Assembly (NCBI GenBank): GCA_027972325.1
Contig: JAPMOS010000009.1
Coordinates: forward strand, 211,001-275,000
From: Paratrimastix pyriformis
Taxonomy: Eukaryota > Preaxostyla > Paratrimastigidae
DNA length: 64,000 nt
Direction: 5' to 3'
Shown: one piece after another, positions 760-64,000 of the stretch
How the letters are laid out: every line of letters starts with the position of its first letter
Position numbering within the stretch: the first letter of the stretch is position 1
Translations under genes and position numbers: made by a program
The notes under the pieces: model-generated
What the model saw: the letters and a program-made list of their open reading frames with translations, nothing else
Database searches by the model: none
What the model was told of the DNA's origin: nothing

Positions 760-2835
760 TTCTACGTTGGCGGAGGCTTCCTGACGGAGCGCAAGATGCA
801 GGCCCTGGCCAAGGCCCTCCAGTCCAACACCACCATCACCAAGGTCGCTGCTCCACCCCCCCCCCCCCCCAGGAGCACAGACCAGAGACACTGGATCATC
901 CAATCATCATCATCATCATCATCATCATCATCATCATCATCATCATCATCATCATCAGCATCAGCATCAGCATCAGCATCAGCATCATCATCACCACATC
1001 ATCATCACCACCACCAACACACCCGCCCCCGCAGCTTAACTTCTTCAACAAGCCCTTGTCCGCGGTCGACATCGAGATCTTGAAGCCGGCCTTCCAAGCC
1101 CGGCCCCTCACCGAGGTCCGGACTGTGGCTATCACCCAGGCACGCACCTCACGGCACGCACTGCCCCATCACCCCCACCCCACTCGCGAGCACCGAGCGC
1201 ACCCTTGGACCATACACACCATCTCATGCTGGTTGTTCTGCTGCACTCCTTCGTCTTCTCACATCCCCACCCGCTTTCTCCCTTCCATCTCCATCGCCTC
1301 CCACCGGATGATGATCGGATGATGATGATGATGATGATGATGATGATGATGATGATGATGATGATGATGATGATGATGATGATGATGATGATGATCGGAT
1401 GATGATGATGATCGGATGATGATGATGACCGGATGATGATGATGATGATGATCGGATGATGATGATCGGATGATGATGATCGGATGATGATGATCGGATG
1501 ATGATGATCGGATGATGATGATGATGATGATGATGATGATGATGATGATGATCGGATGATGATGATGATGATCGGATGATGATGATCGGATGATGATGAT
1601 GATGATGATGATGATGATGATGATGATGATGATGATGATGATGATGATGATGATGATGATGATGATGATGATGATGATGATGATGATGATGATGATGATG
1701 ATGATGATGATGATGATGATGATGATGATGATGATGATGATGATGATGATGATGATGATGATGATGATGATGATGATGATGATGATGATGATGATGATGA
1801 TGATGATGATGATGATGATGATGATGATGATGATGATGATGATGATGATGATTGGATGATGATGATGATGATGATGATGATGATGATGATGATCGGATGA
1901 TGATCGGATGATGATGATGATGATCGATTGTTGATGATGATGATCGGATGATGATGCCCCTCAGCTGAACCTGTCCCGGTGCGGCCTCACGGACCCGGCC
2001 ATGCAACATCTCGCGGAAGCCCTGCAGACCAACAACACTTTGACCAAGGTCGGTCTCACCCACTCCCGACCTCCCCCCACCGAGAGCCAATAGAAGTCAT
2101 CATCATCACCACCCTGTCATCACCACCACCCTGTCATCACCACCACCCTGTCATCACCACCACCCTGTCATCACCACCACCCTGTCATCACCACCACCCT
2201 GTCATCACCACTGTCATTATCACCTTGTCGTCACCACCCTGTCATCACCGCCGCCCTGTCATCACCGCCCTGTCATCACCTGTCATCGCCACCCTGTCAT
2301 CTTCCTCATCGTCGACGCTTCTCACTGTCCACGCCCAGTTGTTGCTGTCACCGAACGATCTGTACGACGATGGGGCGGCCGCCCTGGCGGCCATCCTCAC
2401 CCATTGCCCCCTCAACATGGTCTGCTCAACCCCCATCCACCATTTGACAAGCCCAAGAGGTCGCGAGTTCGATTCTCGAGTGGCCCACATTTTTATTTTT
2501 TTTTGTCTTCCCTTCATCGCACAACAGGTTGATGTGGCGCGAAACCACCTGACCAACGTGGGCGCCCAGGCCCTGTCCGCCGCCCTCCGGGGGAATACCG
2601 TCCTCCAAGAGGTCTGCTGCTCCTCCCCGTGGGTCATGTCGATCACAACCCCTTTTCCCCTTCCCCTCGTCAGCTTCACCTGGAGGAGAACCAGATCGGG
2701 GAGGAGGGTGCTCGGGCCCTGGTCCAGGCCCTGGCCCCCAGCCCGGCCCTGAAGCGGCTCTGCCTGATGGGGAATCCCATCCCGCCCCATGTGATGGAGG
2801 CACTCAAGGCCCAGATGGGCGGCCGGCTGTGCTGA
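760..2835 (+). CDS. Ribonuclease-inhibitor-type leucine-rich repeat protein, 3' part
   Basis: Six exons are readable: 760-843, 1035-1115, 1965-2048, 2339-2419, 2528-2611 and 2674-2835 (TGA stop). Each internal exon is 81 or 84 bases and encodes exactly one 27-28-residue LRR of the RI/NLRC3/RanGAP kind (for example LNLSRCGLTDPAMQHLAEAL). All joins are phase 0, so exons are interchangeable units. The last exon carries one repeat plus a C-terminal cap. Donors are GTCGC, GTCCG, GTCGG, GTCTG and GTCTG. Introns hold microsatellites, and the 2420-2527 intron holds a tRNA-Pro relic. The gene's start was not found; a possible upstream exon ends at 186. Such repeats form protein-binding solenoids; the partner is unknown. 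Confidence 0.85.
895..1012. repeat. (ATC)n / (AGC ATC)n microsatellite in LRR intron
   Basis: Trinucleotide repeat within the 844-1034 intron, passing from ATC units to CAGCAT units. It makes spurious poly-Ser, poly-Ile or poly-His frames. Confidence 0.9.
1308..1950. repeat. (GAT)n microsatellite with CGGAT interruptions
   Basis: Intronic array (intron 1116-1964). It has a pure GAT block of about 265 bases at 1589-1852, flanked by GATGATGATCG variants. It has no coding value. Confidence 0.95.
2098..2290. repeat. 17-bp minisatellite (CTGTCATCACCACCACC)n
   Basis: Six or more near-perfect 17-base units, then degenerate ones, within the 2049-2338 intron. Confidence 0.85.
2447..2487 (+). pseudogene. 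tRNA-Pro 3'-half relic in an LRR intron
   Basis: The segment AAGAGGTCGCGAGTTCGATT and the TCTCG...AGTGGCCCA that follows match the variable loop, T arm and acceptor 3' strand of the intact tRNA-Pro at 17978-18049. One base is missing at the T-stem/acceptor junction, which breaks a pair. No D arm or anticodon arm is recognisable upstream. A T-rich tract and the intron acceptor (ACAACAG, ending at 2527) follow directly, the same arrangement as around the intact tRNA genes. Confidence 0.75.
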
Positions 2836-3192
2836 GGAGATGCCTCCGGTGGTGGGCGGAGTTGGCGCTTTGACGTACCTTCTGCCCGTTTTATGGATTG
2901 ACTTCTTTCCTGTTTTCTTTTTCGTACTATGATAGTCTTTCGTTTTTTTGGCGTGATGTTCTCTTTGGATTTGTTTTTGCGTGGGTTTCCTTGACCCTGC
3001 TCGATTTTCTGTTTCTTTTTTTTTCCTGGGGCCCTGCTCCCAGAGGCTCCCGTTTCTTTTTTTTGTTCGGGGCCCTGCTCCCGAGGAACAAGCTCGAGTG
3101 TCGGAGAAGAGCCGTATCACTATGAGAGAACACAAAGTCCATCGCACACTTTACTCACGATTCGCGTCGTTCATGGCAGAAGCTCAACTTAA
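2836..3192. other. Tail-to-tail intergenic region
   Basis: Lies between the stop of the + strand LRR gene and the stop of the - strand kinase gene. It is T-rich on the + strand, with a 14-base direct repeat (GGGGCCCTGCTCCC near 3029 and 3071). I see no gene in it. Confidence 0.6.
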
Positions 3193-62471: not shown

Positions 62472-64000
62472 TCATTCGTTCAGCTGGCAGAGCAGGGCCA
62501 CGCCGCGTCTGATCCAGTGGTCGGGGGATGTCTCCGGGGTATGGGCACATCCAGGGGCAGGATGAAGTTGGTCGAATGGCCCGTGGTGGACAGTGTCCCT
62601 GCCCGCTGGCCCGTCTTGTACACGGGACACACGTAGCGTGGCGTCGACCCCGGTTCTTCAATGGCCGCGCCGGCGGCTTGCGGGACTCGACGGGGATCAG
62701 GTGGATGGCCGGCATGGGTGAGATCAGCTCACCTGCAGGCGGGGGGGGGGGGGGGGGGGGGGGGGCAGTGATGAGCGTTGGGTGTGGATGATGAGTTGAT
62801 GTGGGTGGGTGGTGGGATCAGCTCACAGGCAGTCGGGGGGGGGGATGGTGATGAGGGTGGGTTTCAAAATCGGGGAGAACCAGACAGGTGGGGGACGGGG
62901 GTGGCTCCTCAGACCGGGGTTGGACTCGCCCAATGCATGTTTAAATTGTTTTTGGTGTTAGCAAGTACTTTTTTTTTGAAACCAAACAGGTGGGGGAAGG
63001 GCTCCTCAGACCGGGGTTGGACTCTCCCGATGTTTGTTTAAAAAAAAAAAAAAATTGGTTTTGAAAAACCAGACAGTGGGCGGGGGGACGGGGATGGCTC
63101 CCCAGACCGGGGTTGGACTCGCCCAATGTGTGTCGGGCCATGTCCCACCGGGCCCCCTCGACGAAGAGGCCCCTGATGTAGACCCCGGTGGGCGGGGGCT
63201 GCCGAATGCGGTCCCACGGCTGGTCGTCGGCCACCCGCGTGTCGAAGCGCAGCATGTCGATGGGCAGGTGGGTCTTGCGGGCGTGCAGCTGCAGGGAGAG
63301 AGAGAGAGGGTGTGGGTGGAAGGGATCAATGAGCAAATGGTGATGATGAGAATGCTGATTGGGGTGTCGATGGTGGGTGGGCCTTGCGGGCGTGCTGCTC
63401 GGGAGAGAGGATGGGCTGGTGGTGCTGATAATGATGATGATGGATTGGATGATGATTGGATGATTGGATGATGATGATGGTGGTGGTGGTGATGATGATT
63501 GGATGATGATTGGATGATGATTGGATGATGATTGGATGATGATTGGATGATGATTGGATGATGATTGGATGATGATGATGATGATGATGATGATTGGATG
63601 ATGATGATGATGATGATGATGATTGGATGATGATTGGATGATGATGATGATGATGATGATGATGATGATGATGATGATTGGATGATGATGATAGTGATGA
63701 TGATGATGATGATGATGATGATGATGATGATGATGATGATGATGATGATGATGATGATTGGATGATGATTGGATGATGATGATTGGATGATGGTGATTGG
63801 ATGATGACTGGATGATGGTGGTGATGATGGTGATGATGATGATGATGGATGGTGGCGGCTGAGGGCAGGCAGGAGGTGATGCCGACCTGGAGGACACCCG
63901 TCAGGAAGCCCACAAACAAAAAAGGCCAGGTCATCACGGGTCTACAGGGCAGGGGGGGCATGGGTGGTGGATGCCGACCTGGAGGACGCCCGTCAGGAAG
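62472..64000 (-). CDS. Axonemal dynein heavy chain, C-terminal end (partial)
   Basis: Exons 63941-63887, 63288-63108 and 62732-62472; the 5' part lies beyond the window. They encode the conserved end of dynein heavy chains: [13 protein letters not shown], then [69 protein letters not shown] followed by [11 protein letters not shown], and a final [15 protein letters not shown] with a TGA stop. Reading the last exon needs two small frame changes, near 62660 and near 62538 (TCCGGGGTATGGG), best explained by indel errors in GC-rich runs. Dynein heavy chains are the microtubule motors of cilia and flagella; this fits the RSP3 gene nearby. Donors are GTCGG and GTCTG. Confidence 0.88.
62712..62845. 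repeat. Duplicated acceptor segment and G runs (dynein last exon)
   Basis: GGTGAGATCAGCTCACCTGC plus AGGCGGGGG at 62717 and GGTGGGATCAGCTCACAGGC plus AGTCGGGGG at 62811. The first carries the in-frame acceptor. Confidence 0.75.
62880..63130. repeat. Tandem triplication of a dynein exon end and donor
   Basis: The segment CAGACCGGGGTTGGACTC[GT]C plus CC[AG]ATG occurs at about 62913, 63008 and 63103, with CCAGACAGG-like flanks. On the - strand each reads GGGCGAGTCCAACCCCG/GTCTG. The 63108 copy ends the real exon; two further potential donors lie in the intron. Confidence 0.9.
63262..63412. repeat. Duplicated acceptor segment (dynein exon 63288)
   Basis: GGTGGGTCTTGCGGGCGTGC followed by AGCTGCAGGGAGAGAG at 63268, and GGTGGGCCTTGCGGGCGTGC followed by TGCTCGGGAGAGAG at 63377. 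Confidence 0.8.
63430..63850. repeat. (GAT)n / (GATGATTG)n microsatellite
   Basis: Dynein intron filler between exons ending 63887 and starting 63288. Confidence 0.95.
63874..64000. repeat. Duplicated dynein exon end and donor at window edge
   Basis: GATGCCGACCTGGAGGACRC plus CCGTCAGGAAG occurs at 63879 and 63970. On the - strand each is GGTGTCCTCCAG/GTCGGCATC. The second copy runs off the window. Confidence 0.8.

Follow-up and report, generated by a model that had tools for sequence, protein, structure and literature searches.

Pyrimidine-bearing GTCYG donors and a matching change of the U1 5' end in the genome of Paratrimastix pyriformis as sampled

Most eukaryotes combine a canonical U1 small nuclear RNA (snRNA) with GURAGU donors (5' splice sites), and few RNA sequences are as strongly conserved as the 5' end of U1. 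In ordinary eukaryotes, a donor must fit two different RNAs in succession. The donors of Entamoeba histolytica read GUUUGU. Here we describe the donors of a 64,000-nucleotide stretch of Paratrimastix pyriformis DNA (contig JAPMOS010000009.1, positions 211,001 to 275,000, or C485:211001-275000; hereafter the window), along with further genes and the snRNA genes of the assembly searched (56,060,509 bases in 495 contigs). Judged from sequence, the spliceosome of P. pyriformis is very probably of the ordinary major (U2-type) kind, with a donor code rewritten throughout the genome as sampled and a U1 changed to match. The donor consensus G/GTCYGY (the slash marks the exon-intron boundary), ideally AAG/GUCUGU, would replace AG/GURAGU, and the U1 5' end would have changed from AUACUUACCUG to AUACAGACCUU in every gene copy found.

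As in canonical systems, the proposed system has a U1 5' end that would pair with the donor, GU-AG introns and a U6 ACAGA box. In a survey that reports a U1 candidate in 236 of 240 genomes (227 of 230 Saccharomycotina and 9 of 10 outgroup genomes), ACUUACC is invariant, whereas P. pyriformis has ACAGACC; the survey notes that replacing pseudouridine-5 by A could compensate for a change from A to U at donor position +4, a replacement that its authors did not find and that occurs here (PMC10581693). The oxymonad Streblomastix strix probably belongs to the same larger group (Preaxostyla), and its 21 reported introns begin GUAUG with a conserved A at +3 (PMC1501061); they agree with our donors in having U at +4 followed by G and differ at +3, which is C here. 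If the two are related in this way, U at +4 may have arisen earlier than C at +3. In the metamonad Giardia lamblia, U1 is also divergent and pairs with the donors of that organism but, unlike the U1 of P. pyriformis, keeps 5' ACUUAC (PMC3510501). A protist U1 gene with an altered 5' end is likewise described in the diplonemid S. specki, but there a single variant with a run of C stands beside canonical U1, and both pair comparably with a canonical logo (PMC12621601). Fritillaria borealis shows a genome-wide departure in its donors as well, with non-GT/AG introns, but its U1 5' end is strictly preserved and recognition is ascribed to U2AF paralogues and N6-methyladenosine (PMC13326754). In E. 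histolytica donors, as in ours, +3 is a pyrimidine and +5 is G, but no U1 is recognised there (PMC13292270), whereas here U1 is present and matching. In laboratory suppressor mutants, a compensatory U1 change restores use of an altered donor (genetic suppression, PMC11732430); unlike those, the change here is natural and affects all U1 copies found. PMC10703272, which reports RNA-seq for P. pyriformis, does not use the term snRNA, and its passages that deal with introns or splicing are silent on donors. Among the matches listed from the open literature, which leaves supplements and most subscription papers outside, there was no report of GTCYG donors or of a genome-wide U1 5'-end switch.

An earlier reading of the window from its letters alone (the sequence-only reading) had claimed GTCYG instead of GTRAGT donors, and alignments that were indifferent to the donor context bore this out. 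We wrote a spliced aligner that scored protein similarity alone and charged any GT donor and any AG acceptor an equal cost. Its references were proteins matched in PDB, one paralogue from the same genome, and human U1-C. It defined 29 introns in 9 gene models on contigs C485, C212, C441, C24 and C68: 3 in Rab11, 6 in tryptophanase, 4 in EML, 2 in a tandem EML copy, 4 in Hsp70, 2 in U1-C, and 8 in the window (5 in a kinase gene, 2 in a Sir2-family gene and 1 in a YeeE-like gene). The pooled donors were GTCTG (13), GTCCG (11), GTTTG (3), GTTCG (1) and GTCAG (1). Position +3 was C in 25 and T in 4, and the purine found there in U2-type GURAGU donors occurred in none. At +4 there were 16 T, 12 C and a single A, and at +6 there were 18 T and 9 C; G occupied +5 in all 29 and -1 in 22. 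GTYYG accounted for 28 of the 29 donors, compared with 8.2% of the 26,267 GT sampled (P 1e-29, binomial), and GTRAG for none. The GT-AG termini of U2-type introns are present in all 29, which were called under the GT-AG rule. A second mode, run on the 21 introns outside the window, freed the donor dinucleotide as well and recovered the same GT donor for 16. The introns defined within the window were as follows.

25588..25655, minus strand: intron in the YeeE/YedE-like (Sulf_transp) gene; donor CAG/GTCCGTCCG, acceptor TTTTCAG; homology-only spliced alignment to a YeeE fragment
35544..35807, minus strand: intron in the Sir2-family gene (PDB matches 8rsn and 5a3a); donor CTG/GTCCGCACC; homology-only spliced alignment
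36072..36119, minus strand: another intron in that Sir2-family gene; donor AAT/GTCTGCATC; homology-only spliced alignment
4267..4317, minus strand: intron in the protein kinase gene; donor AAG/GTCCGCCCT; homology-only alignment to CTR1 kinase, beyond the range of the second reference
3967..4028, minus strand: intron in the kinase gene; donor GCG/GTCTGTCTT, identical from two reference kinases
3866..3923, minus strand: intron in the kinase gene; donor TCG/GTCTGCGAT, identical from two reference kinases; excision restores the HRDIKSQN motif
3696..3743, minus strand: intron in the kinase gene; donor TGG/GTCCGTCGG, from one of two reference kinases, the other reading through in frame
3579..3624, minus strand: intron in the kinase gene; donor GGG/GTCAGCCGG, identical from two reference kinases; the sole A at +4 among the 29

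These eight comprise four GTCCG, three GTCTG and one GTCAG donors. The second kinase reference repeated three of the five kinase introns, read through 3696-3743 and stopped short of the fifth. Outside the 29, the intron of the SNRNP27K gene, judged by eye, opens AAG/GTCTGC. The gene for U1-C is itself interrupted by GTCTGT and GTTTGT introns. All six introns of the tryptophanase gene (L037:3914-6190; best PDB match 8sl7) obey the GTYYG rule; the gene was possibly acquired from bacteria.

All eleven donor coordinates cited in the sequence-only reading carry an exact GTCYG on one strand or the other, eight of them GTCTG and three GTCCG. One opens the YeeE-like intron listed above (25655); the others are given below, the sequence being present at each.

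2420..2424, plus strand: GTCTG
17008..17062, plus strand: intron in a FAM221-like gene, donor GTG/GTCTGTGCC, supported by Pfam FAM221 scores and outside the 29
18147..18151, minus strand: GTCTG
21903..21907, minus strand: GTCTG
24192..24196, minus strand: GTCTG in the YeeE-like gene, also picked by the neutral gene finder
26867..26871, plus strand: GTCTG in an F-box/leucine-rich repeat (LRR)-like gene named by eye, also picked by the neutral gene finder
36964..36968, minus strand: GTCCG
41038..41042, minus strand: GTCTG in an RSP3-like gene, picked by the expectation-maximisation (EM) gene finder
49466..49470, plus strand: GTCCG in the VHS-GAT gene region, with VHS and GAT domains in joined exons
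57534..57538, minus strand: GTCTG, picked by the EM gene finder

The reading frame is open across 17008, and the site could therefore have been exonic. The 452-residue frame read through it, however, scored 22.6 bits against Pfam FAM221, below the cut-off of 25, compared with 34.0 bits for the part upstream of 17061 and 66.5 bits once 17008-17062 was excised, in agreement with the intron placed there earlier. Domain search also recovered Sulf_transp at 152 bits in the YeeE-like gene, RSP3 at 83.9 bits in manually joined exons, and VHS and GAT, as named beforehand.

GTCYG might instead be an artefact of base composition or of rule-based intron choice. The genome is rich in guanine and cytosine (GC content 61.7% over the 200 kb measured; 60.94% for the P. 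pyriformis assembly of 633 scaffolds and 56,627,582 bp in PMC10703272), ab initio sets are rich in false introns, and other dinucleotides reach similar coding scores. A self-trained gene finder was applied to 264 kb, namely the window and 20 stretches of 10 kb (L032-L051); because it merged genes and called many false introns, its set was used for enrichment alone. With zero weight on the bases past GT and AG (the neutral run), it called 559 introns, in which GTCCG was seen 76 times against 14.1 expected (5.4-fold) and GTCTG 61 times against 15.5 (3.9-fold). Weaker excesses were seen for GTTTG (16 against 7.7) and GTAAA (7 against 2.1), and GTRAG was not enriched in this run (GTAAG 1 against 1.2, GTGAG 8 against 10.1). 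Training begun with a GTRAGT bias converged on GTCYG, the same endpoint as from a GTCYG start. The EM set is noisy, GTYYG making up just 256 of its 560 introns; it recovered five of the eleven cited donors, and the neutral run two. An artefact is nevertheless extremely unlikely, since the donor-neutral alignment already contradicts it for the genes tested and U1 independently predicts the same donor sequence. Within the EM set, GTYYG introns carrying C at +4 are longer (median 139 against 61.5) and more GC-rich (0.62 against 0.51) than GTYYG introns carrying T there (128 of each), for which base composition may be the cause in so noisy a set. A search for a branch-point motif returned mostly GAT/ATC and CA repeats.

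The genome contains eight full-length U1 genes, found by the Rfam U1 search and again, as the same eight, by BLAST and by a promoter-anchored pattern. All eight have the 5' end AUACAGACCUU in place of canonical AUACUUACCUG. Their first 58 bases are identical, opening ATACAGACCTTG, and all carry ATACAGACCTT; the mature 5' end from these genes would be AUACAGACC. Compared with canonical U1, UU has become AG at nucleotides (nt) 5-6, which are the partners of donor positions +4 and +3, and G has become U at nt 11. The complement of the new end is AAG/GUCUGU. Positions 1-166 of the Rfam model (RF00003) were matched in 8 of 8, covering the full cloverleaf and an Sm-like site, and where that family has 5' ACUUAC all eight have ACAGAC. 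Furthermore, CCCATAA precedes all eight U1 genes by 59-60 bases and each of the 27 snRNA genes examined (8 U1, 8 U2, 7 U5 and 4 U6) by 52-67 bases.

-52 to -67, loci L001-L012 and L017-L031: CCCATAA element, often GTCCCATAATTTTTCC

In the pairing that we propose, which presumes expression of these U1 genes and their action through it in splicing at these sites, G6 of U1 would pair with C at +3, or with U by wobble, and a purine at +3 would oppose G6; +3 would be C or wobble U and never a purine because nt 6 is G. A5 would pair with U at +4 and tolerate C, C4 would pair with G at +5, and A3 with U at +6. Duplex energies computed with duplexfold predict stronger pairing with the actual than with the canonical U1 for 29 of 29 donors (mean -8.4 against -3.6 kcal/mol). 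Scored by Watson-Crick pairs with the 29 donors, CAG comes first of all 64 triplets that U1 nt 4-6 could hold, against rank 19 for canonical CUU. We infer that the rule extends to the rest of the genome.

Several observations weigh against a donor code rewritten together with U1. The homology sample is small (29 introns, 9 gene models, five contigs), and with the dinucleotide freed 5 of 21 junctions shifted (1 in tryptophanase, 2 in EML and 2 in Hsp70). The coding score shows no preference for GT; GC and TC scored slightly higher. By duplex energy (23 donors), CGG is the best of the 64 triplets and CAG the third. An A-C mismatch at +4 arises with GTCCG, which is about as frequent as GTCTG. Donor positions -2 and -3 have no bias toward U1 pairing. 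At 51-60 bits, the U1 genes fall short of the score of 69.5 that Rfam sets for gathering. Finally, searches of the assembled contigs by Rfam (41 of 992 candidates scored), BLAST and promoter-anchored pattern found no U1 with a canonical end, though one may lie in unassembled sequence.

The frequency of GTCCG also raises the possibility of a second U1 class serving these donors, for which a ATACGGACCT pattern match at C234:202203-202262, behind a promoter-like element, was considered. This match had no U1 structure with either Rfam or a model built from the eight genes, and it fits chance, about 2.7 matches to such a pattern being expected by our own estimate (a reversed control pattern gave 0). 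BLAST with U1 returned the eight genes, all alike in type, plus a fragment of 32 bases that copies the U1 3' end exactly and lacks the remaining gene (G000:C234:346835-346866). We rejected the candidate and think a second class very improbable.

The earlier reading had suggested a possible change in U1 or in the ACAGA box of U6, and had advised reading the pairing segments of both. Across the genome, the first part held and the second did not: U1 is altered in 8 of 8 genes so as to fit the donors, and U6 keeps the ACAGAGA box, as GAUACAGAGAAG, in 4 of 4, the good U6 genes reading GAUACAGAGAAGAUUAGC. Full-length matches numbered 8 for U1, 9 for U2, 7 for U5 and 4 for U6. The branch-pairing site of U2 is the canonical GUAGUA in the 8 of 8 copies read (the ninth full copy is outside this count), and loop 1 of U5 reads GCCUUUUAC in 7 of 7. 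A search for U11 gave no match at E 1 in this genome (39 of 1576 candidates scored), and the system does not qualify as U12-type by this mark. Weak U6 matches at L013-L015 (20.5 bits) and L016 (19.2 bits) were dropped as unlike U6, and so was a partial tenth U2 match. L013, L014 and L015 (on C179 and C243) are near-identical AT-rich stretches at three places, in contrast to the GC-rich genome.

Nucleotides 1-7 of U1 are identical to a stretch of U6, both reading AUACAGA, and a donor with CUGU would therefore pair perfectly with both, since CUGU, the ideal at +3 to +6, is the exact complement of ACAG in the two RNAs. Both altered U1 bases match U6, which chance alone would give about once in nine to sixteen. 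We infer a functional role for this identity. With moderate confidence, we suggest that U1 has become a copy of the donor-reading box of U6 over nt 1-7, that the compromise between two RNAs is thereby abolished, with CUGU at +3 to +6 optimal for both, and that P. pyriformis would be the first eukaryote in nature to have replaced the near-universal U1 5' end in every copy along with the donors of the whole genome. In the handover from U1 to U6, the donor would meet the same partner sequence in both RNAs.

A different account of the same identity is that U6 drives the donors, CUGU being selected for perfect pairing with the unchanged ACAGA box, and U1 either following or having little importance. 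A purine at +3 is the general rule in eukaryotes that combine this U6 box with canonical U1, and it is U1 that differs here; its change in all eight copies found points to selection on U1 too. On the other side, U6 is canonical and exactly complementary to CUGU, the donors form on average 3.0 of 4 pairs with it, and a review argues that commitment to the donor occurs mainly at U6 (PMC11732430). We consider this account possible but rather unlikely.

Alternatively, proteins such as U1-C might read the donors without U1 pairing, the U1 change being neutral drift. E. histolytica has no recognisable U1 according to PMC13292270, which proposes U1-C or U1-70K as the reader, and here LUC7 is matched at two loci. 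U1-C itself is encoded on C68, with a conserved zinc finger (69.7 bits); a zf-U1 match on C86, presumably a sequence resembling WBP4, was rejected as U1-C. Drift, however, would hardly yield the top pairing triplet of 64 in eight of eight copies, and U1 keeps its full structure, Sm-like site and promoter-like element. We give this alternative very little credence and retain the reading in which the donors and U1 changed together. In PMC10581693, METTL16 and SNRNP27K are tied to the preference at +4. A METTL16-family match spanning positions 166-272 of 299 and SNRNP27K with its RQYMNRKG segment seem to be present in P. pyriformis, yet A at +4 occurs in 1 of 29 donors, an apparent exception to that association.

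Other features of the window and the sampled genome were recorded. Microsatellites of the GAT/ATC and CCA type fill introns and spacers, often lie within introns and in some cases are hundreds of bases long. Between 41560 and 46142, the window has two highly similar LRR-type genes in tandem, and L032:1-816 holds a frame resembling a DDE-type transposase (both judged by eye). Preaxostyla carry SUF, and SufBD matches are present in this genome.

18900-20300, 23320-23640, 23900-24170, 24740-25070 and 37300-38800 (window): microsatellite stretches
17978-18049 (window), minus strand: transfer RNA (tRNA) gene, tRNA-Pro(AGG)
36842-36916 (window), minus strand: tRNA-Asn(GTT) gene

If the U1 end and the donors have moved jointly, then a splice code can be rewritten, and P. 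pyriformis would offer a natural case in which both partners of a basic recognition code changed together. In such a genome, annotation by gene finders trained on GTRAG would go wrong. Furthermore, the demands that U1 and U6 make on the donor would be separable here, which bears on which RNA sets the donor consensus.

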